Source: Desulfovulcanus ferrireducens (GTDB taxonomy: Bacteria; Desulfobacterota; Desulfovibrionia; Desulfovibrionales; Desulfonatronovibrionaceae). Taken from it: a DNA stretch of 64,000 bases. Each line of letters begins with the position of its first letter. The stretch's first letter is position 1. The DNA lies in assembly GCF_018704065.1 (NCBI RefSeq), contig NZ_JAGUQP010000014.1:1-64000 (forward strand). The letters are read 5' to 3'. The notes under the pieces were generated by a model that was given only the letters and a program-made list of their open reading frames with translations, searched no databases and was not told the DNA's origin. A program made the translations under genes and the position numbers. Positions 28,995 to 53,111 of the stretch are shown here, piece after piece.

Positions 28995-29562
28995 GTCATG
29001 ATTCCGTTTGACTTCCCACCTTATCTCACAACGCATTAAAATAACATAAAATCAGACCCCATCCTAATATCTAACCCCTAAATAATTAAGCGATTTTTAA
29101 TTGAGTTTTACATTAACTATTTGGAATAAAAGTAGATTTTAAGCCAGCGATTTTCACTCAATAGGTGAGATTGCCACGGGCAGCTCCGCTGCCCTCGCAA
29201 TGACAATCTCGCCCCTGTCATTGCGAGCGGAACAAAGTGGAGCGAAGCAATCTCAAAGTTTGAACTGCAAAAAAATCGCGCAAGTTAGGATTTAACTTAC
29301 TTTTAATCTTTCACGTCTCACGCAGTACGCTTTAAAAGAATAATTAAGAGAAGCGAGCCAATTTTTATATTATTATATTAGGTTGGCAAAAAGGAAGTTT
29401 TTTTAGATCTAATAATTCCTATGGAAAGTTTTAATTTTTACGCTAACCATTGAGTATAATATGTAATTTTAATGCAGGTGGTCTGATTAATAAAAATTTT
29501 ATATTGTCATAAAGTCTTTTTTTTATTTTTTTCTTGTTATAAAGGTGAGTTGATGTTATCTT
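28995..29562 (+). promoter_or_regulatory. Repeat D, copy 1, with conserved promoter
   Basis: It begins at TTTGACTTCCCACCTTATC, contains an inserted family A element, continues with CTCACGCAGTACGCTTTAA and AGCGAGCCAATTTTT, and ends in a promoter: TTGTTA (29534-29539), 17 bp, TATCTT (29557-29562). The same order of blocks occurs in five more copies at 31, 33.3, 34.5, 39.2 and 44.7 kb. It lies ~100 bp upstream of a lipoprotein gene. Confidence 0.75.
29088..29285. mobile_element. MITE family A, copy 4 (long form), inside repeat D1
   Basis: AAGCGATTTTTAATTGAG at the left, a second GCGATTTTCACTC, the core GAGATTGCCACGGGCAG, and AAAAAATCGCGCAAGTT at the right. The long form has ~55 bp of extra sequence at its left, as do copies 6 and 7. 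Confidence 0.75.
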
Positions 29563-29663
29563 CTTTGGAATTCCTTTAGGGGAAAGGATTTGTGTTAAGT
29601 ATCTTAAATTTATCTAATTTATGTTAGATCTCTGAATGTATCGAGGGGATCTGAGGAGGAAGC

Positions 29664-30239
29664 ATGTATTCTATAGCCAAACGAAAAGGCCAGTATTTTC
29701 TGCTTTTGCCGCTTGTACTCTTTATTGTAGGCTGTCATTTATGGAACTCAAACAATAATACACAGTCTAATGAAGCAGTCGTAGAGGCTAGGCAGAAAAT
29801 CGCGCAGTATAAAGAAGAGGCTACGCTATTGGCCTCACGCATTAAGCGTCAATATGAAGGTAATGAAAACACGCAGAACTATATCAAGGCCCGGGATTTG
29901 TACGATATTGCTATGACTCAGAATAACAGCTGGGTGACTTCGTTGAAGCTTGGCATCGCAAATAATGAAGACCTAGAAAAGACGCAAGCGTTTAAAGACA
30001 AGGCAAAGTCTGCCGCTGAGGCCTCTAAGACATTTAGAGAATTTGGTAATAGTGTAATGCCTAAGACTAAGATGGTTGGGGTATCATATATAGTGGTGAG
30101 CAACCTCATAGGATTACTAGTCGAGAATGGGCTCGTTATATGGAATAACTACAGGGGAGAGCAAGAAGCGGCCAGAGTAGCCGCAGCAGAGCGAACCGAG
30201 AAGGAACTTAGATGGTCTAGGTGGGAAGACATTAAGTAA
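29664..30239 (+). CDS. Hypothetical lipoprotein (first cassette gene)
   Basis: 191 aa with a lipoprotein signal ending LVLFIVGC (Cys ~29), a charged coiled-coil-like region (residues 40-70) and a C-terminal amphipathic or membrane segment MVGVSYIVVSNLIGLLVENG. No family recognised. Strong GAGGAGG site before the ATG. Repeat D1 supplies a promoter upstream, and an attC-like site follows 17 bp after the stop, as expected for an integron cassette. Confidence 0.7.
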   Translation: MYSIAKRKGQYFLLLPLVLFIVGCHLWNSNNNTQSNEAVVEARQKIAQYKEEATLLASRIKRQYEGNENTQNYIKARDLYDIAMTQNNSWVTSLKLGIANNEDLEKTQAFKDKAKSAAEASKTFREFGNSVMPKTKMVGVSYIVVSNLIGLLVENGLVIWNNYRGEQEAARVAAAERTEKELRWSRWEDIK

Positions 30240-30256
30240 TCACGCCAATGAAAACG

Positions 30257-30428
30257 ATCTAACCCTTCATTCCAACCGACCGGCTCCGCCAGCGGCTGGG
30301 TCCACATAATGAGCCTATAGAAAAACGCCAAAATGGCTGTTTTTCTGGAATTCGGGAATAGTAGTAATTTCATGTAGTTACAAACCCATAAGTTGTGAAA
30401 AATGATTTTTTCTACAGACTCGTTGGGC
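30257..30428 (+). other. attC-like site, interrupted by MITE C
   Basis: R''-like ATCTAAC (30257-30263) is followed by CCTTCATTCCAACCGACCGG, a small palindrome and, after an inserted 111-bp element, R' GTTGGGC (30422-30428), matching GTTRRRY. The sequence before the insertion is very similar in style to known ~60-bp attC sites. It lies directly after the lipoprotein gene. Confidence 0.6.
30311..30421. mobile_element. MITE family C, copy 1
   Basis: Ends GAGCCTATAGAAAAA and TTTTTTCTACAGACTC are terminal inverted repeats. The body shares GAATTCGGGAATAG and AGTTACAAACCCATAA with copies at 37.3 and 40.3 kb. 111 bp, non-coding. Confidence 0.75.
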
Positions 30429-30449
30429 TCTAAATAAATGGAGGAGGTA

Positions 30450-30548
30450 ATGTATTATCCAAAAGGCAAGAAGGAAATTTTCCAAAAGTTCCTTCAATTA
30501 GCGTATAAAAAATTGGTGATGAATAGATTTTTTCATACGGGTTATTAA
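30450..30548 (+). CDS. Small ORF, 32 aa
   Basis: ATG with an excellent GGAGGAGG 7-bp upstream, coding MYYPKGKKEIFQKFLQLAYK and ending NRFFHTGY. It lies directly after the attC-like site, where a cassette gene would begin. It may be the truncated start of a longer gene whose remainder was lost when E2/D2 arrived. The following 150 bp hold no feature apart from a tiny reverse reading frame. Confidence 0.35.
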   Translation: MYYPKGKKEIFQKFLQLAYKKLVMNRFFHTGY

Positions 30549-30702
30549 AAGGTTATAGGTATAGGTTTCCTGAAGGGCGGAGTCTTTACGAATTGCAACC
30601 TAGGCAACCTCAATAATCACATAGCGTAGGTACTTGTTTTGCCTGTAAGTAATTCCTCTGTCATGATAATTTTCTCCTGATGAATATTGAAGAGACAAGA
30701 CA

Positions 30703-30852
30703 GGGTGCATCCGCTAGTGTTCTAGCTCAAAAGTATTTTTCACCTCTCGTCATTCTGAGGGAGCGGAACGACCGAAGAATCTCCTACCGTAGCGAATGAG
30801 ATTCTTTGCTTTGCTCAGAATGACGTAATCAGAGCAACTAGCGGATGCACCC
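30703..30852. mobile_element. MITE family E, copy 2
   Basis: GGGTGCATCCGCTAGTGTTC at the left and GCAACTAGCGGATGCACCC at the right form near-perfect inverted ends around CGTCATTCTGAG...CTCAGAATGACG. Same length as copy 1; both are followed by the same ~130 bp and then repeat D. Confidence 0.82.
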
Positions 30853-30984
30853 GACAAGACCTATGTAAGATTTGAGATGGCTCAGGTTTTTAAATCGATT
30901 AATATCTTTGATTTCAGTAAAAAGGTAATAGTCGTTTTAATCCTCCCCTTCGGAAAAGGATGCTGCGAAAATAATAAGCGTTCA

Positions 30985-31494
30985 TGATTTCGTTTGACTT
31001 CCCACCTTATCTCACAACGCATTAAAATAACATAAAATCAGAACCCATCCTAATATCTAACCCCTAAATTAAGCGATTTTCACTCGATAGTTGAGATTGC
31101 CACGGGCAGCTCCGCTGCCCTCGCAATGACAGGATGTGCGCTATGTCATTGCGAGGAGCGTTAGCCTTGATGCAATCTCAAACTTTAAACTGCAAAAAAA
31201 TCGCGCAAGTTAGGATTTAACTTGTTTTAATCTTTCACGTCTCACGCAGTACGCTTTAAAAGAATAATTAAAAGAAGCGAGCCAATTTTTTATTTAAAAT
31301 ATTATGATTATATTAGGTCGATGAAAAGGAATTTTTTGGGCTAACTTATTTCTATGGAAAGTTTTAATTTTTACGCTAACCATTTAAGATAATATGTAAT
31401 TTTTATACAGATAGTCTGGTTAACTTGATTTTTTGATTGTCAAAAAGCCTATTTTTTATTTTATCTTAATACAAAAGTAAGTTAGGGTTATTTT
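30985..31494 (+). promoter_or_regulatory. Repeat D, copy 2, with conserved promoter
   Basis: Same blocks as copy 1, including a family A insertion. Promoter: TTAATA (31466-31471), 17 bp, TATTTT (31489-31494). It lies ~125 bp upstream of the HPP gene. With E2 it forms a ~780-bp direct repeat of 28718-29500. Confidence 0.72.
31069..31211. mobile_element. MITE family A, copy 5 (short form), inside repeat D2
   Basis: From TTAAGCGATTTTCACTCG to AAAAAAATCGCGCAAG, with the core GAGATTGCCACGGGCAG and GTCATTGCGAGGAGCG. It lacks the extra ~55 bp seen in copy 4. Confidence 0.75.
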
Positions 31495-31619
31495 AATTAA
31501 ATATTATTAAACCATATTAATTTATGTTAGCCAGTATCATAAACGACTAGTTTAATGTGTAATCTTATCAGATAGAAGTATCACTTATATTCTTTATAGG
31601 TGGTAGATGGAGATGTTTT

Positions 31620-32156
31620 ATGAACTACTTTGACAAAATGAAAGGCGTAAAAAGAAGTCCGCCGCTTGTAAATTTATCTGAAATTTTTTGGTCCTGGGTC
31701 GGCGCTTTTTCAGGCATCTCATCTGTTGCATATGTTCATTACAATCTCCTAGGACAAACGGATTTAGTTATGATAATAGGCTCTTTTGGGGCTTCAGCAG
31801 TTCTTATTTATGGGGTTATAGAAAGTCCTTTAGCTCAACCCAGAAACCTAATAGGTGGCCATATTTTTTCGGCTATAATAGGTGTAGCCGCCTATCAGCT
31901 ATTTCATAGCCATATGTGGCTTTCTGCGGCGGTTGCCGTTGCGACAGCTATTGCTATCATGCATGCTACAAAAACCCTTCATCCTCCAGGAGGGGCTACG
32001 GCATTAATTGCGGTAATCGGAAGCCAAAAGATTCATGACCTTGGTTATCTTTATGCAGTTATACCTGTTGGCTTGGGAGCGGTCATCATGTTGATTGTTG
32101 CACTTTTGGTAAACAATATCCCCAAAAGTCGCAGATACCCACAGTTTTGGTTATAA
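31620..32156 (+). CDS. HPP family integral membrane protein
   Basis: 178 aa, four membrane helices, with the HPP family core: SFGASAVLIYGVIESPLAQP, RNLIGGHIFSAIIGV and the His-Pro-Pro motif TLHPPGGATALIAVIG. Some family members are linked to nitrite transport, most are uncharacterised. GGTGGTAGATGGAG precedes the start. An attC-like site ends the unit ~100 bp downstream, and repeat D2 is the likely promoter. Confidence 0.9.
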   Translation: MNYFDKMKGVKRSPPLVNLSEIFWSWVGAFSGISSVAYVHYNLLGQTDLVMIIGSFGASAVLIYGVIESPLAQPRNLIGGHIFSAIIGVAAYQLFHSHMWLSAAVAVATAIAIMHATKTLHPPGGATALIAVIGSQKIHDLGYLYAVIPVGLGAVIMLIVALLVNNIPKSRRYPQFWL

Positions 32157-32258
32157 AGTGTTAAATTCACCGTAACTTTCGGTCCACCGCTAATGGAACT
32201 AAAAGAAGAAAAGTTATGATAACTTCTGGCTATTGTTGCCTAATTTAAAGAAAATGCG

Positions 32259-32331
32259 GTCTAATCAGTCGTTGAAGTCAGATGTGCGAAGGCTAGCGTT
32301 TTTATACGCCGCTGAACTTAATGTATTAGGC
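32259..32331 (+). other. attC-like site
   Basis: Left arm GTCTAATCAGTCGTTGAAG and right arm CTGAACTTAATGTATTAGGC are imperfectly complementary (GTCTAAT/ATTAGGC, GAAGTCAG/CTGAACTT) with a central stem-loop. The R' box reads ATTAGGC, not GTTRRRY. It lies between the HPP and wrbA genes. Confidence 0.55.
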
Positions 32332-32401
32332 AAAAAGATGTCAGCAATGGCAAAAATTATGAATAAATACCAGGCGGTTAAGTTATTATAAGGAGAGGAA
32401 T

Positions 32402-32998
32402 ATGAAGAAGATTTTGGTGCTGTATTATTCAATGTATGGTCACACTGAAACAATGGCAAAAGCGGTTGCCGAAGGGGTAGGTTCAGTTGATAGTATTGAG
32501 GTAACGGTAAAAAGAGTGCCTGAGCTTGTGCCCGAAGAAGTCGCTCGTAAAGCCGGTGCCAAAATGGATCAGGAAGCTTCCGTAGCTGACCCCAAAGAAC
32601 TAGATAAATACGATGCCATTATTTTTGGTTCTCCAACTAGATTCGGGAACATGGCATCTCAAATGCGTAATTTTTTAGATCAAACAGGATCCTTATGGCT
32701 CAAAGGTGCCTTGGTAGGAAAGATAGGCAGTGTCTTTACAAGTACTGGTACTGGTGGAGGAAACGAAACAACGATCCAATCATTTCATACAACACTATTT
32801 CATCACGGTATGGTTGTCGTTGGTTTGCCATATTCTTGTCAAGATTTACTGGATATATCTCAGGCAAGAGGCGGATCTCCATTAGGTGCCGGGACGCTAG
32901 CGGGTATTGACGGTTCAAGGCAGCCATCTGAAACTGAGCTTTCTATGGCAAAATTTCAAGGTAAGCATGTTGCCGAGATAACAAAAAGAATGACATAA
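32402..32998 (+). CDS. wrbA: NAD(P)H:quinone oxidoreductase, WrbA family
   Basis: A flavodoxin-like FMN enzyme for two-electron quinone reduction. The FMN phosphate loop is [12 protein letters not shown] (residues ~8-19); [20 protein letters not shown] and [11 protein letters not shown] are the flavin-contacting signatures of type IV quinone reductases. 198 aa. AAGGAGAGG before the ATG. A cassette between two attC-like sites; plausible role in oxidative or quinone stress. Confidence 0.95.
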
Positions 32999-33002
32999 AA
33001 TT

Positions 33003-33058
33003 GCCTAACGATGAGGCATATCCGGACAGGACGTATCCAGTGTCTATACCTGTTGAGG
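33003..33058 (+). other. attC-like site (short, weak)
   Basis: R''-like GCCTAAC (33003-33009), overlapping just past the wrbA stop, and GTTGAGG (33052-33058). The arms GCCTAACGATGAGGCATA and TATACCTGTTGAGG pair imperfectly. 56 bp. Downstream, 33120-33175 has two further small hairpins (TTCGGCAgatgTTGCCGAA, ACGGCCttataGGCCGT). Confidence 0.4.
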
Positions 33059-33209
33059 TAAAGTTTAATTCTCTTCTTTTTTTAACCGCAGACCCACGCA
33101 GACTAACGCAGACATTTTTGTTCGGCAGATGTTGCCGAACAAGAACCTGACGGCCTTATAGGCCGTGTTTAAGCTTAGTAGCAATCACTTTCTGGGGTGA
33201 TGATAGCCG

Positions 33210-33422
33210 TTCCGATTTTTTATTTGAAATATTATGATATTAGGTCGCTGAAAAGGAAGTTTTTTAGGGCAACTACATTTTAGGAGAAACTTGAATTTTT
33301 ACGTTAACCATATAAGATGATATGTAATTATAATTCAGTTAGTTTGAATGGGCAAAATTTTAGAAAGTCAAAAAAGTTTATTTTTTATTTTCCTTGCTAT
33401 AAAAATTAATTAATGCTAATTG
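33210..33422 (+). promoter_or_regulatory. Repeat D, copy 3 (3' half only)
   Basis: It starts within the ATTTTTTATTTGAAATATTA block and keeps the rest of D. Promoter-like TTGCTA (33394-33399), 17 bp, TAATTG (33417-33422). It leads into a gene fragment. Confidence 0.65.
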
Positions 33423-33443
33423 TTTTGAATAACATTTAGGATA

Positions 33444-33561
33444 ATGCATATATCGACAAAATGATTACGTTTTAATACTTGAAGTAAGAAATGGTTCTTA
33501 CGGTTGGTTGCCAAAGGACGCGTGGGATTGGATAAGTGAAAATGTGCTACGTTAAAACATT
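33444..33561 (+). pseudogene. Truncated/frameshifted gene fragment
   Basis: ATG at 33444 opens a frame of only six codons, but the overlapping frame continues as DYVLILEVRNGSYGWLPKD and ends AWDWISENVLR. The composition looks protein-like, so a frameshifted remnant of a cassette gene is likely. 33562-33804 after it contains VCR-like sequence (GACTCCCGCTTAAAGTTT, AATGTTGTTGC) and hairpins in the 5' leader of the next gene. Confidence 0.35.
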
Positions 33562-33804
33562 TAAATAAGAGCATGCACCCGCCTACAAATCGGCGCTTTT
33601 CCGGCCGCTTGACTCCCGCTTAAAGTTTCGTGTTTTCAAAATGTTGTTGCCCAGCAATGTTAGCGCCAGGCGATGACTGTCGCTATTTGTTGCTGTTGTT
33701 ATCAAAAAATAGCCAATGTATGGCTGATCGCTATCGATTAATTTGTGTGGTTGGTTATTAGATAGCGTTTTATCTATCAAGCCGCAGAAAAAAAGGAGTG
33801 TTTT

Positions 33805-34077
33805 ATGAATATGTATGTTGGCAATCTTGCCTTCAGCGTGACCGAAGATGATCTGAATACTGCATTCTCAGAATTCGGAGAAGTAGAAAGTGTGAACATT
33901 ATAACGGAAAAGTACTCAGGACAGTCAAAAGGTTTTGGCTTTGTTGAAATGTCAGACAATTCAGAAGCTGATAAAGCGATAAAAGCCTTGAATGGAACCG
34001 AACTGAAAGGGCGCGAAATAAAAGTAAACCAGGCAAAACCTCGTGGCGAGCGTTCCTCGCGCAAACCAAGATATTAA
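33805..34077 (+). CDS. RNA recognition motif (RRM) RNA-binding protein
   Basis: 90 aa forming a single RRM: RNP2 is MYVGNLAF (residues 3-10) and RNP1 is SKGFGFVEM (~40-48), followed by a short basic tail RGERSSRKPRY. Small bacterial proteins of this sort resemble cyanobacterial cold-inducible Rbp proteins. AAAGGAGTG precedes the ATG. The long leader with hairpins could allow post-transcriptional control. Cassette followed directly by an attC-like site. Confidence 0.95.
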   Translation: MNMYVGNLAFSVTEDDLNTAFSEFGEVESVNIITEKYSGQSKGFGFVEMSDNSEADKAIKALNGTELKGREIKVNQAKPRGERSSRKPRY

Positions 34078-34147
34078 CACCTGACAAGTGCATCAAGACT
34101 GACAGCTAGGCCATTGGCCTAGCTGCAGCTTATGCTGGCCGTTGTGA
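34072..34147 (+). other. attC-like site
   Basis: It overlaps the RRM stop codon. TATTAAC then ACCTGACAAGTGCATC pairs imperfectly with CAGCTTATGCTGGCCGTT; the centre is a perfect 10-bp hairpin CAGCTAGGCC-ATT-GGCCTAGCTG. The terminal box GTTGTGA deviates from GTTRRRY. 34148-34317 downstream has only small hairpins (CTAGCCCGTAAGGGCTAAG, CTGCCACTCGGTGGCAG). Confidence 0.5.
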
Positions 34148-34317
34148 TAGTAGAAAAGCCAGATTTTTATATAAACTAGCCCGTAAGGGCTAAGATCTAA
34201 GATTTTTATCTGCCACTCGGTGGCAGGAAAAGAAAACTTTGAGCCTTCCTGCCCTGTTGAATCCTGCCTTCTGGCAGTCAAGAAATGAAAAGGGTGCAGC
34301 GAAAAAAAACAGTATGC

Positions 34318-34715
34318 TCTCATCATTTCGTTAGACTACCCGCCTTATCTCTCAACATATTAAAATAACAGAGAATCTGAATTTATTCTTGTTGGTAATG
34401 CAACATCGTCAAAATTATATCTAAAAGCAAGTTTTGCTTCACCTTTAATTTTTAACGTCTCAAGCAGTACGCTTTAAAAGAATAATTAAAAGAAGCGAGC
34501 CAATTTTTTATTTGAAATATTATGATTATATTAGGTTGGCGAAAAAGAAGTTTTTTAGGTTTAATAATTTCTATAGAAAGTTTTAATTTTTACGTTAACC
34601 ATCTAAGATGATATATGATTTTAATATAGATGCCCTTATTAATCGTAATTATAGAGCTCCAATAAACCTATTTTTTTTATTTTTTCTTGATACAAAGATA
34701 AATTGATGTTAGAAT
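34318..34715 (+). promoter_or_regulatory. Repeat D, copy 4 (no MITE insertion), with conserved promoter
   Basis: Complete D without family A: GTTAGACTACCCGCCTTATC, CTCAAGCAGTACGCTTTAA, AGCGAGCCAATTTTTTATT, TTTTTACGTTAACCATC. The promoter is the best of the six: TTGATA (34687-34692), 17 bp, TAGAAT (34710-34715). It lies 110 bp upstream of two tiny ORFs. Confidence 0.78.
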
Positions 34716-34824
34716 AGCAAATATTACTTATGAATCTAAATTTATGTGCTAGAAATACATGAAAAAAATAGAGATTTAAGATATAAATAAATGCTCGCTC
34801 TCATATAAAGAGTTCTATGGTCTT

Positions 34825-34998
34825 ATGGACGAGCTTTTATTTAAGATTTTTGGACGTCTCACAAAAGAAATTCTAAAATTTGTACTCTTTAACGATGAGG
34901 TTGTGAATGTTTTGAAAAAAGTTCTTAAAGCTCCTAGTTACATAATTCACAGTATTTTCATCGAAAACTCGGAGTTACTTTTAAATAAAGAAGGATGA
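34825..34998 (+). CDS. Small ORF, 57 aa (first of a tiny two-gene cassette)
   Basis: MDELLFKIFGRLTKEILKFV continues to a C-terminus ENSELLLNKEG. Alternating hydrophobic and charged residues suggest amphipathic helices. It is one base apart from the next ORF (TGA-A-ATG), so they are probably coupled. Promoter D4 is upstream and an attC lies after the pair. No family recognised; a toxin-antitoxin pair is possible but not shown. Confidence 0.5.
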   Translation: MDELLFKIFGRLTKEILKFVLFNDEVVNVLKKVLKAPSYIIHSIFIENSELLLNKEG

Positions 34999-34999
34999 A

Positions 35000-35149
35000 A
35001 TGAATTTTTATCAGAGGTTAAAAGCTATTAGAAATACAATCAATTCAGCATACCAATTGCTAAGTCAGGTCGTAGAAAGCCTAATGGAATCAAAGAGGTT
35101 AGAGTCTAATAAGATATTTAATAATATCGAAAGAAGATATGAAATGTAA
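35000..35149 (+). CDS. Small ORF, 49 aa (second of a tiny two-gene cassette)
   Basis: MNFYQRLKAIRNTINSAYQL...FNNIERRYEM, a mostly helical, charged peptide. The AAGAAGG ribosome-binding site lies inside the end of the previous ORF. Its stop codon is 3 bp before a well-formed attC, the usual spacing in cassettes, which supports that it is a real gene. Confidence 0.5.
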   Translation: MNFYQRLKAIRNTINSAYQLLSQVVESLMESKRLESNKIFNNIERRYEM

Positions 35150-35151
35150 CT

Positions 35152-35223
35152 TTCTAACATAGCGCATCCACTTTGACCTCAAAAGCCTTGTGGCTTTGGC
35201 GTACGTGATGCGCACCGTTAAAC
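35152..35223 (+). other. attC site (well-formed)
   Basis: TTCTAAC (R'') ... GTTAAAC (R', matches GTTRRRY). Arms AACATAGCGCATCCACTT and ACGTGATGCGCACCGTT are complementary except for unpaired bases, as in attC. The central hairpin AAAGCC-TTGT-GGCTTT closes the site. 72 bp, between two unrelated cassette genes. Confidence 0.75.
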
Positions 35224-35257
35224 AACCAAACCGTGCCGTAAAAAGGAGGGACAAGTC

Positions 35258-35926
35258 ATGGAAGAATTATTCGTCTTTAGACTCAACAAATTAAAAATTC
35301 TGGACAGTCGTGAGTGGGGACCTGGCGAACTTAAGATACTAAGTTTCATTACAGGTGAAGACGTGAACCTTCCCGTGTTGGATGATCTTCAGCGCACAAC
35401 AGATCCGGAGCGAAAAAAACAACTGATCAAGGTCGCTACCCAATCGGTTCTGAGTTCAAAGGTTTTAATGCAACTGGACAACGTAAGAGACGGTCATCAA
35501 ATGACATTCGGTGACACAGGATACGCACTGTATACCGCTCAAAAGATACCGGAATCGTTCAACTGGCGTCTAATAATCCTTGAGATTGACGAAGATGTAA
35601 ACAATCTAGGACGAAAGCTAGACAATGTGATTAACGCTCCGGAATTCGATGGTTTCGTGGGCAACGTTTTAGCTCTGGCCAGCGCTGCAGCGAATCCTGC
35701 TGCTGTAGCTGGAGTTGCTATTGCAAAGTACGTGTTTGGCATAATTGCAGATACGATGATTGAAAACAAAGACGACCAGGTGGGTCTAGTTTATCAGTCG
35801 TTTACTCGAGAAGAACATTACCCCCACGGAGAGAGAAAGCGTGATAATGTTCCGGACCTGAGCAATAACGTGCTGGTTGACTATTCGATTTTCGGGACGA
35901 CTTACGAGAGACCTAAAGTTGCCTAA
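35258..35926 (+). CDS. Hypothetical protein (cassette gene)
   Basis: 222 aa. The N-terminal half (VFRLNKLKILDSREWGPGEL) looks like a beta-rich domain; the middle holds a hydrophobic Ala-rich segment (VLALASAAANPAAVAGVAIA), probably a buried or membrane-associated helix; the C-terminus ends VLVDYSIFGTTYERPKVA. I recognise no family. AAAAAGGAGGGAC precedes the ATG, 34 bp after the upstream attC. Its stop codon overlaps a GCCTAAC box. Confidence 0.75.
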   Translation: MEELFVFRLNKLKILDSREWGPGELKILSFITGEDVNLPVLDDLQRTTDPERKKQLIKVATQSVLSSKVLMQLDNVRDGHQMTFGDTGYALYTAQKIPESFNWRLIILEIDEDVNNLGRKLDNVINAPEFDGFVGNVLALASAAANPAAVAGVAIAKYVFGIIADTMIENKDDQVGLVYQSFTREEHYPHGERKRDNVPDLSNNVLVDYSIFGTTYERPKVA

Positions 35927-36005
35927 CCATTAGGATTAATCAGACCGCAAACTGCGGAGCACATATTTCAAAAGGCTGCAGCCCTGTTGTCGGTCTGATT
36001 AATCC
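35921..36005 (+). other. attC-like inverted repeat (no clear R')
   Basis: GCCTAAC (35921-35927) overlaps the stop codon and is followed by a perfect 15-bp inverted repeat, GGATTAATCAGACCG / CGGTCTGATTAATCC, enclosing 43 bp. No GTTRRRY follows. It may be a degenerate attC or a strong structured terminator. 36006-36348 after it shows only a right-end remnant of MITE C (TTTTTTTCTACAAACTC, ~36261-36277). Confidence 0.4.
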
Positions 36006-36348
36006 ACACCTTGAAATTGTAGATAAGCAATTTTTTTATATTGCTGTTGTATTGTCTTATTCTTGAACTAAGAAAATTACATCAATTCGGCCTTGGATTT
36101 GGATGTCAGGTTAAAATTTTAGCTGAGTGTTCTTGTTTTTAGACCGGAAGTTGCAAACAAATTAGGAAAAAATAAGTAAATAATCAGCTCAGAATCCATT
36201 TTCACAAAGATTAGTCTGAAAGCCGCTGTTCAAATAGGCGGGAAGTAAACGTTGTATTTGTTTTTTTCTACAAACTCGGTAGCTCTGTTAATTGAAACTG
36301 CGGCGCACAGGACGCTTCAACGAATTTTCTGTAGGGAGGTATTTTTAG

Positions 36349-37060: not shown

Positions 37061-37178
37061 GTTCACCCCGTTCAATGACGATAAGACAAATACTACCCGG
37101 CAGTACTTTGCTGAGCTGCTTTCTGCTAATCCAGAGCTTCTTGTGAGTTTGAATATAGACTTGGACAAATTATTATAG
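36958..37178 (+). pseudogene. Frameshifted second copy of the 36686 gene
   Basis: Starts MYKHIEDNGDIHML, then stops because CTTGTAAACAGC of the first copy has become CTTTAAATAGC (one base lost). Past the shift the frame reads NSKGETLLVCAECGGRW and ends LVSLNIDLDKLL, giving a ~73-aa original protein. An attC follows 11 bp later, so this copy keeps the native 3' end of the cassette. Confidence 0.75.
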
Positions 37179-37188
37179 TTTTATGAAG

Positions 37189-37362: not shown

Positions 37363-37370
37363 GGATAAAA

Positions 37371-37952
37371 ATGAAATACAATGCTGATGTTTTCTGTGTA
37401 CAGTTTCCGATCGTCAAACAATTTATTTATCACTTGATATGCTACAGGGAATTAAACCGTGTCCTCCAGGATCTTGACCTTAAGAACGAATTCTGGACAT
37501 ACACCTCAAATGCTCACCTTTTGCAATGCACCATTTTATGGTGCATGGTTTTCGGTTCAGATGGATGCAATCGGACACATTGGAAGAATTTATGTGGTTC
37601 AGATTCTGTCAAGCTTAAAGATAGCTTTAGGCAAGGTCTCTTCAAGTCGACAAAATTAAACCAGGAAACTTGGCAGGTGTATTGGAATAAGATGAATAGT
37701 TTCAGAGGTGGTTATGCCGCCCATCGGGAACTAGAATTTACTGATCCCGTTCCAGATTTTACTACTGCTCAAGAAGTCGCTTACTTTTACGATCAATGGA
37801 TTCGTGAGGTGATTCTTCCAGATGTTTTTGATGAGCCGCCTTTAAAAAAATCAGCGTTTAAAATACAGCAGGAAATTAGGCCATTAGCTGTGCATTTTCT
37901 ATCAGAAACTTATCTATTAAAATTCCACGCCAAGCAAAACGCTGGACACTGA
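37371..37952 (+). CDS. Hypothetical protein (cassette gene)
   Basis: 193 aa, soluble, rich in aromatics, with CTILWCMVFGSDGCNRTHWK (residues ~54-73) as its most distinctive block and RGGYAAHRELEF in the middle. The all-alpha look and the R..H-type spacing recall HEPN-like proteins, but I cannot place it in a family. It starts a few bases after the attC/MITE C junction, and its last codons overlap the next attC. Confidence 0.72.
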   Translation: MKYNADVFCVQFPIVKQFIYHLICYRELNRVLQDLDLKNEFWTYTSNAHLLQCTILWCMVFGSDGCNRTHWKNLCGSDSVKLKDSFRQGLFKSTKLNQETWQVYWNKMNSFRGGYAAHRELEFTDPVPDFTTAQEVAYFYDQWIREVILPDVFDEPPLKKSAFKIQQEIRPLAVHFLSETYLLKFHAKQNAGH

Positions 37953-38004
37953 CTGGCAAAATTCGCTACGCTCGTTTGTCAGCAGGTCAGCGCTGGTGTT
38001 ATGC
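37934..38004 (+). other. attC site
   Basis: GCAAAAC then AACGCTGGACACTGACTGGC pairs with GTCAGCAGGTCAGCGCTGG...GTT; the loop holds TTCGCTACGCTCG, the same hairpin motif as in the previous attC. The R' box GTTATGC is the variant found in VCR-like repeats. It overlaps the end of the upstream ORF; the next gene starts 20 bp later. Confidence 0.68.
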
Positions 38005-38023
38005 ATTTTAGGACCTAGCTCAC

Positions 38024-38881
38024 ATGGTTTTATGGCTAAAAATACCGCTTGTTCTCGTTGCCCTGGGCATTTTGGCTTTGATATTGGCCGCATGGATTGG
38101 AACAGTTATCTGGGACAAATCAACATCTCGCCTTGTTGAAACGCTTTCAGCATCTCAGGAGAACCATTCACAAGATAGAGTTAATTTCAAGGAACTTAAT
38201 AGCTTGCCGGAGCCTGTAGCAAGGTATTTTCGTCTTGTTTTAAAGGAGGGGCAGCCAATAATTCGTTCCGTCAAGCTTTCCCAAAAAGGAGAATTCCGGA
38301 CAAGACCAACGGACAAAAAATGGGCCAATATGGAAGCAGTGCAGCATTTTACAGCAAGAGGCCGGGGGTTCGTTTGGGATGCTAGTATTCGAATGATGCC
38401 ACTTTTGACGGTGCGTGTTCGTGATACATATGTAAAAGGACAAGGGTTTATGACTGCTAAGCTTATGTCCTTAATAACCGTGGTTGATGAACACGATAAA
38501 TCAGAGCTAAACGGTGCTGCTCTCCAACGATATCTGGCTGAAGCGGTCTGGTTCCCTACAGCACTTCTTCCCAGTCAAGGTGTAGAGTGGAGCGAGATAA
38601 ATAATCACACAGCCAGGGCAACTCTCAGGGATTACAATACATCGGTATCACTGGAGTTTCATTTTAACCAGGTCGGCGAGATCGTAGGAATTTACACTCC
38701 GGGTAGATATCGTGAGGTAAATGGAAAGTACGAGCTGACACCCTGGTCTGGTCAATATAGAAGGTATGAAGAACGAAATGGTATCCGAATTCCTCTGGAA
38801 GGGGAAGTTAAATGGGAGTTATCTAGCGGCAGCTTTCCATATTGGAAGGGAGAGCTTGTTGAGATTGAGTATGTCTTTTAA
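38024..38881 (+). CDS. DUF6544-like membrane-anchored protein (cassette gene)
   Basis: 285 aa with one N-terminal helix (LVLVALGILALILAAWIGTV) and an outer beta-rich domain. LPEPVARYFRLVLKEGQ, the block ARGRGFVWDASIRMMPLL and RRYEERNGIRIPLEGEVKW match the pattern of proteins annotated DUF6544 (function unknown). A partial attC-like sequence (GCATAACATGGCGTTC, 38909-38924) follows and is cut by repeat D5. Confidence 0.8.
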   Translation: MVLWLKIPLVLVALGILALILAAWIGTVIWDKSTSRLVETLSASQENHSQDRVNFKELNSLPEPVARYFRLVLKEGQPIIRSVKLSQKGEFRTRPTDKKWANMEAVQHFTARGRGFVWDASIRMMPLLTVRVRDTYVKGQGFMTAKLMSLITVVDEHDKSELNGAALQRYLAEAVWFPTALLPSQGVEWSEINNHTARATLRDYNTSVSLEFHFNQVGEIVGIYTPGRYREVNGKYELTPWSGQYRRYEERNGIRIPLEGEVKWELSSGSFPYWKGELVEIEYVF

Positions 38882-38949
38882 GCGAACGCCGACATACAAA
38901 AAGAGAATTGCATAACATGGCGTTCACCTGACCGCTATTCCTCTGCTCT

Positions 38950-39523
38950 TCATTGCGCCTTTTGACTACCCGCCTTATCTCACAACAGATTAAAATAACA
39001 TAAAATTTGAACCCTTCCTTATATCTAACACCTAAGTTGAGCGATTTTTAATTGAGTTTTTCGTTAACCTTTTGGAATAAAATTAGATTTTGAGCCAGCG
39101 ATTTTCACTCAATAGGTGAGATTGCCACGGGCAGCTTCACTGCCCTCGCAATGACAATCTCGCCCCTGTCATTGCGAGCTTAAGCAAAGTGGAGCGAAGC
39201 AATCTCAAACTTTGGACTGCAAAAAAATCGCACAAGTTAGGATTTAACTTGTTTTTAACTTTTCACATCTCACGCAGTACCCTTTAAAAAAATTACGAGA
39301 AGCGAATTAGTTTTTTACTGGAAATAATGTTATTATATTAAGTTGGTGAAAAGTAAGTTTTAAGGCTAACTAACTTCTAGTAATAATTTAAATTTTTACA
39401 TTAATCGTTTAAAATGATGGTATAAGTTTAATACAGGTGATCTGATTAATAATGGTTTTAAATTATCATAAAAGCCATTCTTCTCATTTTTTACTTGAAA
39501 TAAAAATGAGTTAATCTTATAAA
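38950..39523 (+). promoter_or_regulatory. Repeat D, copy 5, with conserved promoter
   Basis: TTTTGACTACCCGCCTTATC at the left, a family A insertion, CTCACGCAGTACCCTTTAA, and the promoter TTGAAA (39495-39500), 17 bp, TATAAA (39518-39523). It begins within what looks like an attC-like sequence after the DUF6544 gene, and lies ~120 bp before the YaiI-like gene. Confidence 0.75.
39037..39238. mobile_element. MITE family A, copy 6 (long form), inside repeat D5
   Basis: TTGAGCGATTTTTAATTGAG to AAAAAAATCGCACAAG, with core GAGATTGCCACGGGCAG. Same insertion point in D as copies 4 and 5. Confidence 0.78.
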
Positions 39524-39643
39524 AAATAAGTATTAAATGACACATAAATTTATCTTGTTGGTATGTAACATACAGCGGATACAACAGAAGGTAGGCGAGT
39601 TTTGAGGTTTCCAAAAGCGAATATAGCAGGAAAAGATAATTTA

Positions 39644-40096
39644 TTGCGAATTTGGGTCGACGCCGATGCATGCCCAAACGTTATTAAAGAGATCCTATTT
39701 CGTGCAGCTGTAAGAGTACAAGTCATTATCACTTTAGTGGCCAACCGGTCGCTGAGAATACCCCACTCACGTTTTATCAAGAACGTCCAAGTGCCACCCG
39801 GTTTCGATGTTGCAGATAACCACATCGTTCAACAAGTACGCCCAGGGGATCTGGTTATTACCGCAGATATTCCTCTTGCTGCCGCCATTATTGAAAAAGG
39901 AGGCCACGCACTTAACCCTCGAGGTGAACTTTATACAACTGATAATATCCGGCAGCGCTTGGCAATGCGTGATTTTGGGGAAGAGTTAAGAAGTACGGGA
40001 GTGGATACCGGTGGTCCATCACCTTTTAGCCGGCGCGACCGCCAAATTTTTGCTAGTAAACTAGATTGTTTTCTAGCTAAGTGCAAAATTGCGTAA
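39644..40096 (+). CDS. YaiI/YqxD family protein (DUF188)
   Basis: A 150-aa PIN-like fold family. It starts [18 protein letters not shown] with the conserved Asp pair; DIVQ-like [24 protein letters not shown] (key Asp in ITADIPLA) and [21 protein letters not shown] are family signatures, with [17 protein letters not shown] at the end. TTG 39644 with AGGAAAAG upstream gives the usual length; an upstream TTG at 39602 adds 14 residues. Predicted nuclease-like, unproven. Confidence 0.92.
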
Positions 40097-40356
40097 AGGG
40101 TTGCAAATGCACATATCAATGGCATGCAGCTGACCGCATTTGCCCTCGGTGGTTTTTTGAAGCCTTGTCTCCCGCATGAAGTTTGGTGCAATTTTAAAGT
40201 TGTTTGCTCCGCGTGTTTGGCGCAGCTTACGCCTATACGTTGAGCCTGTTGAAAATCTCCAAAATGGGCGATTTTTTGAAAATTGGACATAGTAATTTCA
40301 GCTAGTTACAAGCCCATAAATCGCAAAAGATGGATTTTTTTACAGACTCGTTGTGT
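40088..40356 (+). other. Long VCR-like attC candidate, interrupted by MITE C at GTT
   Basis: After the YaiI stop come GCATTTGCCCTCGGTGGTTT, TGAAGTTTGGTGCAATTTTA and GTTTGCTCCGCGTG, in the style of ~125-bp VCR-type sites, ending ACGCCTATACGTT (40239-40241). MITE C starts there, followed by GTTGTGT (40350-40356). The arms are less clear than in the shorter sites. Confidence 0.45.
40242..40349. mobile_element. MITE family C, copy 3
   Basis: GAGCCTGTTGAAAATC to GGATTTTTTTACAGACTC, flanked by GTT on both sides. Shares AGTTACAAGCCCATAAATCG with copy 1. 108 bp. Confidence 0.75.
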
Positions 40357-40445
40357 GGAATGAGGTGGCATGCAAAGACTTTAATAAAATTAGTTGAACA
40401 AATAGATATTCATATTAGAAATAGAACCTAAAAATAGGGGAATAA

Positions 40446-40904
40446 ATGAAGAAAATATTGACCGTCTTGGGGGGTATTTTTGTTGTTCTTGTAATTGTGA
40501 GCATTATTGGATTTCTAATATTGAACTATTTCGGTAATAATTTAGATACAGAAAGTATGGCTTATGTTGATGAAAATATACCCAAAATTATTAGTGCATG
40601 GGATTCAAATGAATTAATCAACCAAGCAAGTCCTGAATTACTCCAAGTTATGTCTAAAGAAAAAATAGAATATTTTTTTAAATTTTTTTCAGATAGGTTG
40701 GGTTCATTAAAAGAATATAAAGGTTCTAAAGGTAAGGCAAATATTTTTATAACTACAGGAGAAGGGAAAGTAATTACTGCCGCATACTTAGCCGAGGCAT
40801 TATTTGAAAAAGCTCCTTCGACGATCCAAATTCGCATAATAAAACATGACGACAAATGGCAGATTTTAGAGTTTCGTGTAAATTCCGATGCTCTTATCCC
40901 ATAA
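40446..40904 (+). CDS. Hypothetical membrane-anchored protein (cassette gene)
   Basis: 152 aa. One N-terminal helix (VLGGIFVVLVIVSIIGFLIL), then an exported domain with NIPKIISAWDSNELINQASP and RIIKHDDKWQILEFRVNSD. This pattern of a short helix bundle followed by a beta sheet resembles NTF2-like extracytoplasmic domains, but no family is assigned. ATAGGGGAATAA precedes the ATG. Followed by a VCR-like attC candidate. Confidence 0.72.
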   Translation: MKKILTVLGGIFVVLVIVSIIGFLILNYFGNNLDTESMAYVDENIPKIISAWDSNELINQASPELLQVMSKEKIEYFFKFFSDRLGSLKEYKGSKGKANIFITTGEGKVITAAYLAEALFEKAPSTIQIRIIKHDDKWQILEFRVNSDALIP

Positions 40905-40930
40905 CTGTTTGATTTAATGATATCTTTTGC

Positions 40931-41061
40931 ACACAACAAGGCTTTGTATCCTGAATGCGTTCCTGCTGGCATGTTGCCTTTAACGAGTATCGAATAAGCC
41001 CTAAACGTCATGCCCGTTTTCGCGTTCGGGGGGATGCGTCCGGTGAGCGTGGCCGTTAGTT
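40931..41061 (+). other. attC candidate, VCR-like length
   Basis: ACACAACAAGGCTTTG at the left and GAGCGTGGCCGTTAGTT at the right pair partly (CAACAAGGC / GGCCGTTAG). The centre contains CATGCCCGTTTTCGCG and GGGGGGATGCG. R' reads GTTAGTT. 131 bp. It lies between two unrelated genes at the expected place. Confidence 0.45.
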
Positions 41062-41114
41062 GAAACATATATAATGTTCAAAAACATAGGGGTAGAAAAG
41101 ATGAGATTAGAAGT

Positions 41115-41309
41115 ATGAAAGGTGCAAATCGTGTAAATATAAAGCCAGGTTTGCGGGTTTTAATTGTATTAAAGAAGGACCAGCGAACAGGAAAACTAAC
41201 GGAAGGAATAGTGAAAGGTATTCTGACAAAATCTTCTACTCATCACCATGGTATTAAAGTCCGCTTAGAAAGTGGTGAAATTGGGCGAATTAAAGAAATG
41301 TTAGGTTAA
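41115..41309 (+). CDS. YwbE family protein (DUF2196)
   Basis: 64 aa. NIKPGLRVLIVLKKDQRTGK, LTEGIVKGILTKSSTHHHGI and KVRLESGEIGRIKEML cover the whole small beta-barrel family. Function unknown; broadly spread in bacteria. GGGGTAGAAAAG lies upstream. A GGCTAAC half-box (41334-41340) follows, but no complete attC is recognisable. Confidence 0.92.
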   Translation: MKGANRVNIKPGLRVLIVLKKDQRTGKLTEGIVKGILTKSSTHHHGIKVRLESGEIGRIKEMLG

Positions 41310-41484
41310 GGGTGTCAAATAATAAAAGGCAATGGCTAACAACTGGATGACCTCGGGTTTGCTGTAAGCTATTTGCTAGTATGAATTGCAAACTAAATAT
41401 TGAATAAAAAATTTATTTCCTGACTACAACAGAGTATGGGGTGAAAGATAGGCCGCTAATTTCCGGTTGTAGGAATAGGTTGTA

Positions 41485-42165
41485 ATGATAATGGGTGGCA
41501 AATTACAGGCGAAACTGAATTTTAAAAGCCAAACTTGTCCATTATGCAAAAAAGCGGAGCTTAGCAAAATCCACAAGGACAGGCGCCGTGACTATTTTCT
41601 TTGCCAGGCGTGTAAATTAGTCTTTGTGCCATCGGCGCAGTTTTTATCTGCGAAAGATGAAAAGGCCGAATATGATTTGCACCGCAACTCTCCGGATGAT
41701 CAAGGCTATCGTCATTTTTTAAGCCGCTTATTCATCCCCCTGCAAGAAGTTTTGGCACCCGGAAGTCATGGCCTGGATTTTGGTTCCGGCCCCGGTCCTA
41801 CGCTTTCTATCATGTTTGAGGAAGCCGGACATTCCATGGTAATCTATGACCGTTTTTATGCGCAAAATCCACTTGTGCTGGAAAATCAATACGACTTTAT
41901 TACTGCTACCGAAGTGGTGGAGCACCTGCATGACCCGAAAAAAGAGATGGATAGATTGTGGGGTTGCTTGAAGCCGGGTGGCTGGCTGGGCATAATGACC
42001 AAGTTGGTTTTTGACCGTGAGGCGTTTGCACATTGGCACTATAAAAACGATCCTACCCATGTCTGTTTTTTTGCCCGGTCGACGTTTGAATGGATAGCCG
42101 ACCAGTGGCAGGCTAAGCTGACTTTTGTTGGTAAAGACGTGATTCTTTTTTACAAAAAGAATTAG
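41485..42165 (+). CDS. Class I SAM-dependent methyltransferase with N-terminal zinc ribbon
   Basis: 226 aa. CPLC (residues ~18-21) and CQAC (~40-43) form a zinc-ribbon-like pair; the methyltransferase domain follows with GLDFGSGPGPTLSIMFEEAG (motif I), MVIYDRFY, FITATEVVEHLHDPKKEM (post-I) and LKPGGWLGIMTKL. Substrate unknown. Plus-strand cassette-like context; downstream, GAAGGTCA and TTTTGACCTTC (42193-42256) form an inverted pair that may be a diverged attC. Confidence 0.88.
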   Translation: MIMGGKLQAKLNFKSQTCPLCKKAELSKIHKDRRRDYFLCQACKLVFVPSAQFLSAKDEKAEYDLHRNSPDDQGYRHFLSRLFIPLQEVLAPGSHGLDFGSGPGPTLSIMFEEAGHSMVIYDRFYAQNPLVLENQYDFITATEVVEHLHDPKKEMDRLWGCLKPGGWLGIMTKLVFDREAFAHWHYKNDPTHVCFFARSTFEWIADQWQAKLTFVGKDVILFYKKN

Positions 42166-42321
42166 GAAAAGAGCTTTATCTGTGAAGGTCATAAAAAAGA
42201 CAGCTATCAAAGCGGCTGCACCTGCGTTCCAATGCGCCCGGTGAGTTTTGACCTTCGGAGGAAAACAATGTAAACGTGCTAGTTCTTTTTATCGCTCTAA
42301 ATTAGATATTCGTTACCTGCC

Positions 42322-43221
42322 ATGGATAATTTTATCATCATTATAGCATACCTCCTTATAGGTATATTGTTGCGCCGAATATCTCGATTCCCGGATGAAA
42401 CGGGAAATGTACTTAATCTGTTCGTTATTTATGTCTCCTTGCCAGCCCTGGTTTTACTAAAGATCCCAGAATTAACTTTTTCAAAAGAACTATTGGTTCC
42501 TACATTAATGCCATGGGCAATGCTCTTATTGTCTGCTTTTGTGGTTATAATTTTATCTAAAATTCTAAAATGGGACAGAGAAGTTACAGGCGCTCTTTTG
42601 CTTCTAGTGCCACTGGGCAACACTTCATTTCTCGGCATCCCTATGGTGAAGGCTTTTTTTGGGGATCAAGCTGTTTCTTATGCTGTGCTTTATGATCAAT
42701 TAGGCTCCTTTCTGGCTCTGGCCACGTATGGTTCCTTGATCCTGGCATTATATGGGCAGCGTAAAAGCACTCCCTCAATATATGATGTAGCTAAAAAAAT
42801 AATCACTTTTCCCCCTTTTATTGCGCTTGCTCTTGCATTTCTTCTCAAATCTTTTTCATACCCGATTATCATAAATTCTCTCCTTCAAACCCTGGCGGCA
42901 ACACTGGTGCCGGTAGTGATGATTGCGGTAGGGTTTCAATTTACCTTGCGTTTAAGAAAACAAGTGGTCTCGCCTCTTTGCATTGGACTTGCGATTAAAC
43001 TTGTTGCCGCGCCTCTTGCTGCCCTTTTTATATCCAAACTCTTTGGTTTTAGCGGACCTGCCGCAAAGGTCTCAATTTTTGAAGCGGGTATGCCCCCAAT
43101 GGTATCAGCGGGTGCCTTGGCTATCCTGGCCGGTCTTTCTCCTGCCCTGACTGCAGCGCTGGTGGGGCTGGGTATTATTTTGAGCTTTGCTACACTTCCA
43201 TTATTATACCAATTCCTGTAA
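42322..43221 (+). CDS. AEC family transporter (auxin efflux carrier-like)
   Basis: 299 aa, about ten helices in two halves with the polar crossover motifs VPLGNTSFLGIPMVKAFFG (residues ~94-112) and EAGMPPMVSAGALAILAGL near the C-terminus. Bacterial AEC proteins export or import small carboxylates (e.g. malate); substrate not deducible. Starts at ATG 42322 in MDNFIIIIAYLLIGI. Confidence 0.93.
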   Translation: MDNFIIIIAYLLIGILLRRISRFPDETGNVLNLFVIYVSLPALVLLKIPELTFSKELLVPTLMPWAMLLLSAFVVIILSKILKWDREVTGALLLLVPLGNTSFLGIPMVKAFFGDQAVSYAVLYDQLGSFLALATYGSLILALYGQRKSTPSIYDVAKKIITFPPFIALALAFLLKSFSYPIIINSLLQTLAATLVPVVMIAVGFQFTLRLRKQVVSPLCIGLAIKLVAAPLAALFISKLFGFSGPAAKVSIFEAGMPPMVSAGALAILAGLSPALTAALVGLGIILSFATLPLLYQFL

Positions 43222-43268
43222 TTACTTATTATGATTAATTTTTGTCGTGAGATTAAGATAAACTTAAG

Positions 43269-43470
43269 TTGAGCGATTTTTAATTTAGACTTACATTAAA
43301 AACATTGGAATAAAAGTAGATTTTGAGCCAGCGACTTTCACCCAATGGGTGAGATTGCCACGGGCAGCGTAGCTGCCCTCGCAATGACAATCTCGCCCCT
43401 GTTATTGCGAGCTTAAGCAAAGTGGAGTGAAGCAATCTCAAAGTTTGAACTACAAAAAAATCGCTCAATT
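43269..43470. mobile_element. MITE family A, copy 7 (long form, best-preserved ends)
   Basis: TTGAGCGATTTTTAATTTAG at the left and AAAAAAATCGCTCAA at the right are clear inverted ends. It is a free-standing copy, not inside D. The rest of the 43222-43599 gap holds only a remnant of a family C right end (GCTTTTTCTACAATCACGTGAGG). Confidence 0.82.
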
Positions 43471-43599
43471 TAGGGTAAAGTAATCCAGGGTCAGAACCGG
43501 ATGAGGGGCATGAACCCCCATATCACCAAAGCCATATCTCCATAAAACATTACTCAAAAAACCAGGGTTTATTTTCATAATTGCTTTTTCTACAATCAC

Positions 43600-44403
43600 G
43601 TGAGGCGTATTTTGGGAAAGTCAACGAGGGATGGACATCAAAGATTTCGAAAAATTTTTACTATATATAGCGTCGCATTAATTGGCGTTCTCTTTGTGCT
43701 GCTTGCGCCACCAATCCCCCAAGACCCTGAATACCACAACTTTTCTGACCAGCGAACAATGATTGGAATCCCTCATTTTTGGAATGTGGTTACAAGCCTG
43801 CCTTTTCTTGTTGTAGGTATCATTGGTTTACTCACACTATTACACAGGAAATCTTTGAAATATTCACGTTCACTATTAAAATGTTATCTGGTTTTTTATG
43901 CTGCTACTTGTGCTATAGGGATTGGTTCGGCCTATTATCATTTGCATCCAACTAATGAAACTCTGGTGTGGGATAGATTGCCAATGACAGTAGCGTTTAT
44001 GGCTTTTTTTTCCATTATCATTGGAGAGTATATTTCTGAAAAAACAGGGAAAAGGCTGTTTCTGCCACTAATTATTGCAGGTATTATTTCTGTAGCATAT
44101 TGGTACTTTACGGAGAAGTACGGTCACGGTGATCTTCGTCCATATGCTCTGGTGCAGTACTTGCCACTTTTTCTAATCCCAATGATTTTAGTCATGTTTC
44201 GTTCGCGATTTTTACGTAGTAAATACATTTGGATTATGCTGGGTGTTTATGTTTTTGCAAAGGTTTTTGAAATATGGGATGGATATATGTACAATCTTAC
44301 CGTTTTCATGGGAGGTCATTCTATCAAGCATGTTTTGGCCGCACTCGTGCCCTTGATTTTTATTGTCGCGCTTAAGAAACAAAATGATAACGAAGCCAAC
44401 TAG
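43600..44403 (+). CDS. CREST/alkaline-ceramidase-like membrane protein
   Basis: 267 aa, seven predicted helices. The block GIGSAYYHLHPTNETLVWDR followed by LPMTVAFMAFF, and the late HSIKHVLAALVPL with conserved His, are the signature of the CREST superfamily of membrane hydrolases (ceramidase/PAQR-like). GTG at 43600 is taken as start; a Met further in would truncate the first helix. Plus-strand cassette-like gene. Enzymatic activity is inferred only from the metal-ligand pattern. Confidence 0.78.
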   Translation: MRRILGKSTRDGHQRFRKIFTIYSVALIGVLFVLLAPPIPQDPEYHNFSDQRTMIGIPHFWNVVTSLPFLVVGIIGLLTLLHRKSLKYSRSLLKCYLVFYAATCAIGIGSAYYHLHPTNETLVWDRLPMTVAFMAFFSIIIGEYISEKTGKRLFLPLIIAGIISVAYWYFTEKYGHGDLRPYALVQYLPLFLIPMILVMFRSRFLRSKYIWIMLGVYVFAKVFEIWDGYMYNLTVFMGGHSIKHVLAALVPLIFIVALKKQNDNEAN

Positions 44404-44531
44404 TCTATTTTTGTACTTTTAAATATGGTATGGTTAGAAACTAGAGTAATCAGGGGATGCAACCATTTTGTTTCTCGCCTTCCAGAATTCAGGAATGGAA
44501 AATAGGGCAGTGAAATCATCTATTGCCCATG

Positions 44532-44830
44532 TTTCCGTTTAACTTCCTGCCTTGTCTTGTAACATATTTAGATTGATAAAAATCAAAAAACTTTATTTGG
44601 AATGCAAAAGGGGCAAGATTATATCTACAAACAAGACGTCACCTATTTTTATTCCTCATGTCTCACGCCGTACTCTTAAAAGATGTAAAAGAAGTCACCA
44701 AACTTTGTTGAAAACAGTGTGATTATATTATGTTGGTTAATGTAAATTTTTTATAATTTAAATATATATCAGCGTTAGATAAATTTATTTGTCAATTTTC
44801 CTTGACTAAGAAAGTGCTTAACAATAATAG
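44532..44830 (+). promoter_or_regulatory. Repeat D, copy 6 (diverged), with conserved promoter
   Basis: TTTAACTTCCTGCCTTGTC, CTCACGCCGTACTCTTAAAAG and GTGATTATATTATGTTGG recall the other copies but are more diverged. Promoter TTGACT (44802-44807), 17 bp, TAATAG (44825-44830), 67 bp before the next start codon. 44404-44531 before it shows nothing else. Confidence 0.62.
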
Positions 44831-53056: not shown

Positions 53057-53111
53057 TTTTCCTTCAATTATAATTATTTCTATTTCTTTTAATTTGACTC
53101 ATATCTCTTTA

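Follow-up and report, generated by a model that had tools for sequence, protein, structure and literature searches.

Arrays of gene cassettes without an integrase pose the question of how genes lying far from any integron promoter (Pc) get expressed and exchanged. This question is raised by a 64,000-nucleotide (nt) stretch of Desulfovulcanus ferrireducens DNA (contig NZ_JAGUQP010000014.1, positions 1 to 64,000, hereafter the window), which contains copies of a non-coding, AT-rich repeat, here termed D, of approximately 400 bp without insertions. With a probability of roughly one in two, we consider D to be the duplicated AT-rich 5′ leader of an old, degenerate cassette-like block, a leader whose 3′ end is most likely a weak sigma-70 promoter.

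Alignment and a search of the whole genome (a 2.59-Mb assembly of 60 contigs, 98.64 % complete) bore out the six homologous copies that a sequence-only reading of the window had placed there, every one of them on the plus strand. With the copy at 31.2 kb as query the other five were recovered at E-values of 1e-6 to 5e-68, and beyond these six copies the single-copy query yielded 22 bases on contig 3 only (E up to 0.01). A sequence profile of the six copies added a seventh on another contig, a 5′-truncated copy near the end of contig 5 (G000:C5:1360-1499, minus strand, E 9e-9), further profile matches within the genome having E-values of 0.07 or worse. The 5′ part of D was found in four window copies only, together with a 29-bp match on contig 18. 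The window copies, labelled C1 to C6 in 5′ to 3′ order, are listed below with their promoter-like hexamer pairs (-35, spacer length, -10), insertions of a miniature inverted-repeat transposable element (MITE) and the open reading frame (ORF) or gene that follows.

28990-29625, plus strand: C1, with a MITE at about 29076-29289 and TTGTTA-17-TATCTT at 29534-29562; next ORF at 29664
30976-31531, plus strand: C2, with a shortened MITE at about 31063-31214 and TTAATA-17-TATTTT at 31466-31494; next gene TM_HPP at 31620
33212-33440, plus strand: C3, 5′-truncated, with TTGCTA-17-TAATTG at 33394-33422; next plus-strand ORF of at least 70 amino acids at 33805, for an RRM protein, behind an intervening Chlorobi-RRM RNA
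34280-34752, plus strand: C4, no MITE, with TTGATA-17-TAGAAT at 34687-34715, the top-scoring promoter-like site among the copies
38950-39560, plus strand: C5, with a MITE at about 39031-39241 and TTGAAA-17-TATAAA at 39495-39523; next gene of the YaiI/YqxD family at 39602
44500-44865, plus strand: C6, no MITE, with TTGACT-17-TAATAG at 44802-44830; next ORF at 44879 (TTG start) or 44897 (ATG start)

Without the insertion D starts at about TTTGACTNCCCNCCTTATCTC and ends at about AATTTATGTT, with weaker homology continuing further upstream, and it measures about 420 nt in C4. The copies have a GC content of 25-33 %. C3 and the seventh copy are without the 5′ part and C6, the most diverged copy in the window, is internally shortened; the 3′ end is clearly kept in six of the seven copies, C6 being the weakest. 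The two sequence blocks proposed as common to the copies are shared in part: CTCACGCAGTACGCTTTAA is exact in two of the six, one base off in two more, three bases off in the 44.7-kb copy and absent from the truncated 33.2-kb copy, while AGCGAGCCAATTTTT is exact in three and carries 4, 5 and 6 mismatches in the remainder. The first 88 nt of D are 98 % identical between the 29- and 31-kb copies. Immediately upstream of these two copies lies a 271-nt repeat (28718-28988 and 30703-30973, 91 % identical), the first part of which is MITE-like by eye.

The proposal of a homologous leader in sense orientation before different, mostly unrelated genes was borne out: in all seven copies D is on the same strand as the coding sequence assumed to follow it. 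The seventh copy is located upstream of a gene that is 87 % DNA-identical to the window ORF 35258-35926, and as this ORF follows C4, D precedes members of one gene family at two loci. The seventh copy is bordered on its other side by a tRNA-Val gene of opposite orientation.

At the 3′ end of D the six -35/-10 hexamer pairs quoted in the sequence-only reading are present as given, exactly 17 bp apart in each, and the seventh copy carries TTGATA-17-TATTTT; no insertion or deletion occurs between the hexamers among the six copies that clearly retain this end. The 3′ part was aligned for C1-C5 and the seventh copy, C6 being left out because it gave no alignment at the promoter in global alignments, and both strands were scored at each aligned position with a sigma-70 weight matrix, allowing a one-base shift. 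The quoted site had the top mean score among the 176 aligned plus-strand positions (5.9 in the neighbouring column and 5.7 in the exact column), compared with 4.9 for both the next distinct plus-strand site and the best minus-strand site in the same alignment of the 3′ half of D. A TG is found one base ahead of the -10 in four of the six aligned copies, and conservation drops past the -10, from 0.69 in the spacer to 0.49 across the following 30 columns. By local alignment the tail of C6 matches C3 and C4 (1.0 % and 0.2 % of 500 single-base shuffles were as good), whereas none of the other four copies (C1, C2, C5 and the seventh) is matched as closely, their values being 67 %, 13 %, 10 % and 15 %.

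A number of observations weigh against a promoter at this site. Column-shuffled alignments equalled or exceeded the observed best plus-strand score in 6.5 % of 200 trials, and a consensus scan was passed at the quoted site in a single one of the six window copies (C4). Across 28.6-45.5 kb, counting both strands, there was no excess of promoter-like sites (39 versus 43.9, standard deviation 6.7, in shuffles). Mean pairwise identity among the six aligned copies is 0.79 at the -35, 0.69 in the spacer and 0.59 at the -10, the spacer being about as conserved as both hexamers combined; with values of 0.60 for the 60 columns upstream of the -35 and 0.68 for columns 4-110, the promoter is hardly conspicuous. 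Within the -10 the first two bases alone are invariant and positions 3-6 are variable, the last T being present in four of the six aligned copies. When D is divided into four segments, the one that ends at the -10 shows the lowest conservation in five of the six pairs among C1, C2, C4 and C5, these copies being only 62-74 % alike there. The next candidate gene, moreover, begins 382, 284 and 242 nt past the -10 in C3, C4 and the seventh copy. The idea that hexamers and spacing both hold from copy to copy is correct for the 17-bp spacing but too strong for the hexamers, and a special conservation of the promoter is not supported, given the low identity of the 3′ end. As for promoters being reiterated within the array, a sense leader is indeed repeated and the quoted site is the best common sigma-70 site in its 3′ half, although the region is not enriched in promoter-like sites. 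On the sequence data we regard a promoter at the 3′ end of D, of a weak sigma-70 type, as plausible but only moderately supported; it is plausible rather than demonstrated because the gene-proximal end tends to be the least conserved part of D. Something in the core of D may be more constrained than this end.

The element within C1, C2 and C5 is a separate MITE-like insertion, distinct from D. It is an inverted-repeat element of 150-214 bp, inserted at the same point in these three copies and absent from C4 and C6, with the inverted ends CCTAAGTTGAGCG .. CGCNCAAGTTAGG and the core CATTGCGAG. The core recurs at 5.0, 8.5 and 16.7 kb, and one solitary copy was found:

43261-43474, plus strand: solitary copy of the inserted MITE

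No inverted pair of at least 25 nt links the ends of D itself. In a search for short arms, covering five copies and up to five of the longest pairs of each, imperfect pairs joined the 5′ and middle parts of D, including 29033-29048 / 29460-29475 (16 nt, 94 %) and 34357-34378 / 34606-34627 (22 nt, 77 %), of the ATTAAAATAACATA / TATGTAATTTTAAT type. These arms sit within the homology, not at its ends, and are possibly due to chance in AT-rich DNA. D might itself be a transposable element, but this reading is unproven.

The copies in the window fall within a block of cassette-like genes whose main features are as follows.

28590-47374, no strand assigned: block between recJ and alr, about 18.8 kb, holding cassette-like genes and an aldehyde ferredoxin oxidoreductase gene; ends placed by eye
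35000-35149, plus strand: small ORF of 49 codons downstream of C4, read from the sequence, which stops two bases before the attC-like site
35152-35223, plus strand: clear attC-like site, in the bottom-strand fold of which the R and L boxes form stems (z -2.8, matched by 2 of 200 shuffles)

In the sole congener compared (G001) recJ and alr abut, and the recJ of the window, judged by eye, ends at a stop codon within the adjoining DNA and not at the stop of the congener. Among 18 other relatives recJ was not found beside alr at any alr locus (mostly 1.5-kb flanks), leaving the congener as the only case, and for this reason we infer, rather than consider proven, a gain of the block in the present genome. 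The GC content of the array is 39.3 %, that of its flanks 45.3 % and 45.1 %. The sequence-only reading had implied an integron setting, but a well-defined integron was not supported. With the integron integrase model TIGR02249 no match in the whole genome exceeded the cut-off of 265, although a gene might have been missed in assembly gaps; the best genes gave split matches of 80.5 + 51.6 and 76.6 + 75.1 bits with a gap around model positions 178-242. Besides the one clear attC-like site there is a second candidate at 37189-37251, with the boxes but a fold that does not stand out (z -0.4), a pronounced hairpin that lacks the R′ GTT at 35918-36012 (z -5.3), and four more candidates picked by eye with z scores of -1.5 to +0.6. 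A strict count of attC-like sites in the region gave 8, compared with 9 for the reverse complement and 1-11 in 10 shuffles, so that the count lies within the shuffle range, and a looser count gave 68 versus 66 in the reverse complement. No clear attC-like site lies between C4 and the small ORF 35000-35149. We term the block cassette-like rather than an integron.

D is private to this genome within the data searched. BLASTN against 60 relatives returned a 24-bp match only, and the sequence profile found nothing better than an E-value of 0.0115 in 17 other genomes of the family. Across the order (348 genomes including the present one, under stricter filters) the profile revealed no convincing copy among the other 347, three of which gave E-values of 9e-4 to 4e-3, near chance for that many genomes. 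A class-level search again spanned 348 genomes, repeating one weak match and adding no new group. The weak profile matches lie in genomes G035, G315, G344 and G006. A pattern scan of genome contigs gave two isolated matches whose similarity to D reaches about 40 bp at most, two pattern scans of viral contigs gave none, and D was likewise absent from the plasmids and phages searched.

In our preferred reading the D leader would have arrived as part of the cassette-like block, old and degenerate, that separates recJ from alr, and its 3′ end (TTG..A, 17 bp, TA....) would most likely supply a weak sigma-70 promoter and start sites, allowing local transcription of the block genes without a single array promoter. 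The copies would probably have spread and been partly homogenised through duplication and recombination between repeats, and three of them carry the inserted MITE. A bolder version, which we think unlikely, would make D a portable promoter-plus-homology module copied before unrelated cassettes, by which an integrase-less array is locally expressed and, through recombination among its leaders, reshuffled. D could also be a passive relic, intergenic DNA duplicated along with neighbouring cassettes or through recombination, in whose AT-rich sequence promoter-like strings arose by chance. This is possible, if doubtful: promoter-like sites are no commoner than in shuffled sequence, D is poor in GC, its hexamers and spacer are about equally conserved, and the 271-nt upstream repeat and first 88 nt of D common to C1 and C2 look as they would after duplication. 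Yet a 3′ segment so divergent in four copies is clearly retained in six, without an indel between the hexamers, and within the 3′ half no other site gives a better common sigma-70 match than the quoted one.

The function of D might instead reside in its central core, 160-250 bp upstream of the promoter-like pair, as a protein-binding or recombination site to which the 3′ end is incidental. The core can be placed as follows.

31237-31318, plus strand: central core of D in C2

Between C2 and C4 identity is 98 % in the core as opposed to 73 % in the 5′ segment and 64 % in the 3′ segment, and sliding identity peaks at the core in the pairs C1-C4 and C2-C4. Gene conversion could produce the same peak, however; the truncated copies, at 33.2 kb and on contig 5, have lost the greater part of the core, and the core of the 39-kb copy is only 72-80 % identical to that of three others. 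We consider this account quite improbable. Still less do we favour D as a displaced attI-like leader, in which an integron since lost would have left its Pc and attachment site as copies in the array. It is true that an AT-rich leader precedes cassette-like genes here and that truncated attI sites within arrays are known from mobile integrons (PMC12901181), but the displaced attI1 types described there are 14-18 nt long. Inspection by eye showed no GTTRRRY crossover motif with a constant position at the 3′ end across the copies, the homology runs upstream beyond the sole perfect GTTAGAC (in C4), and the genome has no integrase above the cut-off. This possibility is very slight. The suggestion that a structured RNA, from one strand or the other, accounts for the conservation of D received no support from consensus, single or alignment folds or from Rfam, and we consider it scarcely credible. 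The plus-strand consensus fold is weak (-4.5 kcal/mol) with some pairs tolerant of G-U, and the best single fold, that of the C1 plus strand, reached a z of -1.87 with 6 of 200 shuffles as good; by contrast the minus-strand consensus energy is 0. Single folds of six plus-strand and five minus-strand stretches had z scores of -1.9 to +0.8, alignment folds of six regions on both strands -1.9 to +0.9, and Rfam had no match inside D at E up to 1.

The genes of the block include those for TM_HPP, a WrbA-like quinone oxidoreductase, an RRM protein, DUF6920, YaiI/YqxD, a methyltransferase and a membrane transporter. Five of 14 scanned block proteins were without a Pfam match at E up to 0.001 and PADLOC had no match among 10. 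The 222-amino-acid protein of ORF 35258-35926 (ORF5; loci 35258-35926, L076:277-1032 and L093:6301-6963) has no Pfam, NCBIfam or PADLOC match and occurs in two of 199 genomes of the order besides its own, with 72 % identity in G270 and weakly in G209. The G270 homologue adjoins a gene resembling, by eye, a patatin-like phospholipase, and no D-like leader was seen upstream of it when the sequence was read. The only Rfam match, a Chlorobi-RRM RNA (RF01697, 33706-33777) whose 45 bits are the same as the printed gathering score, lies in the block but outside D, just upstream of the RRM-domain gene at 33805. At 36596-37085 neighbouring small ORFs are covered by a directly repeated stretch (period about 270 bp; 97 % over 70 nt, 88 % over 86 nt).

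The window contains further repeats. An inverted-repeat element of about 115 bp with the ends GAGCCTGTAGAAAA / TTTTCTACAGACTC is present at 30310-30427, 37247-37361 and 40241-40355, the only copies in the genome at E up to 0.01. Two copies have GTT on both sides, and in the third the left flank reads AAT and the right flank GTT; one of the GTT-flanked copies sits at the R′ GTT of the attC-like candidate 37189-37251, and the element is possibly a MITE that targets cassette recombination sites. A separate family of repeats occurs in the flanks in both orientations (22895-23003, 53104-53430, 60039-60232 and 63059-63382).

Cassette-borne promoters have already been published, and what differs here is the same homologous leader before mostly unrelated genes. 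In the array of Vibrio sp. DAT722 cassettes are reported to be expressed from a diversity of promoters within it (Michael and Labbate 2010, PMC2945992); the present block resembles that array in its putative intra-array promoters and departs from it in having a single repeated leader in place of a diversity of promoters. In four Vibrio superintegrons most of 29 gene-less cassettes showed sense promoter activity, with which in silico promoter prediction failed to agree (Blanco et al. 2024, PMC11014356), and two gene-less cassettes of Treponema integrons with promoter activity are cited within the same paper. D shares with those gene-less cassettes that it consists of non-coding stretches in an array, there able to drive neighbouring cassettes. 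Unlike them it is one reiterated homologous sequence, with putative promoters, in a block without an integrase, and at least once it apparently shares a unit with a small ORF. As in CALIN, the clusters of two or more attC sites that lack an integrase (PMC8618304), the cassette-like genes point the same way and no integrase in the genome exceeds the cut-off, although a single clear attC-like site is present here, the others being degenerate or not above chance. The delta-attI gene cassettes of mobile integrons (PMC12901181) likewise place leader-derived pieces inside arrays, but those are pieces of attI1 or attI2, whereas D, about 400 bp long once its MITE is left out, has no crossover motif at a constant position. 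In the literature searched we found no description of a repeated homologous promoter leader in a cassette array, which is no proof that none is in print.

The evidence as it stands is of a repeat with a plausible promoter in one genome. If our reading is true, a reiterated common leader would with one sequence account for the expression of genes remote from any Pc and for their exchange.

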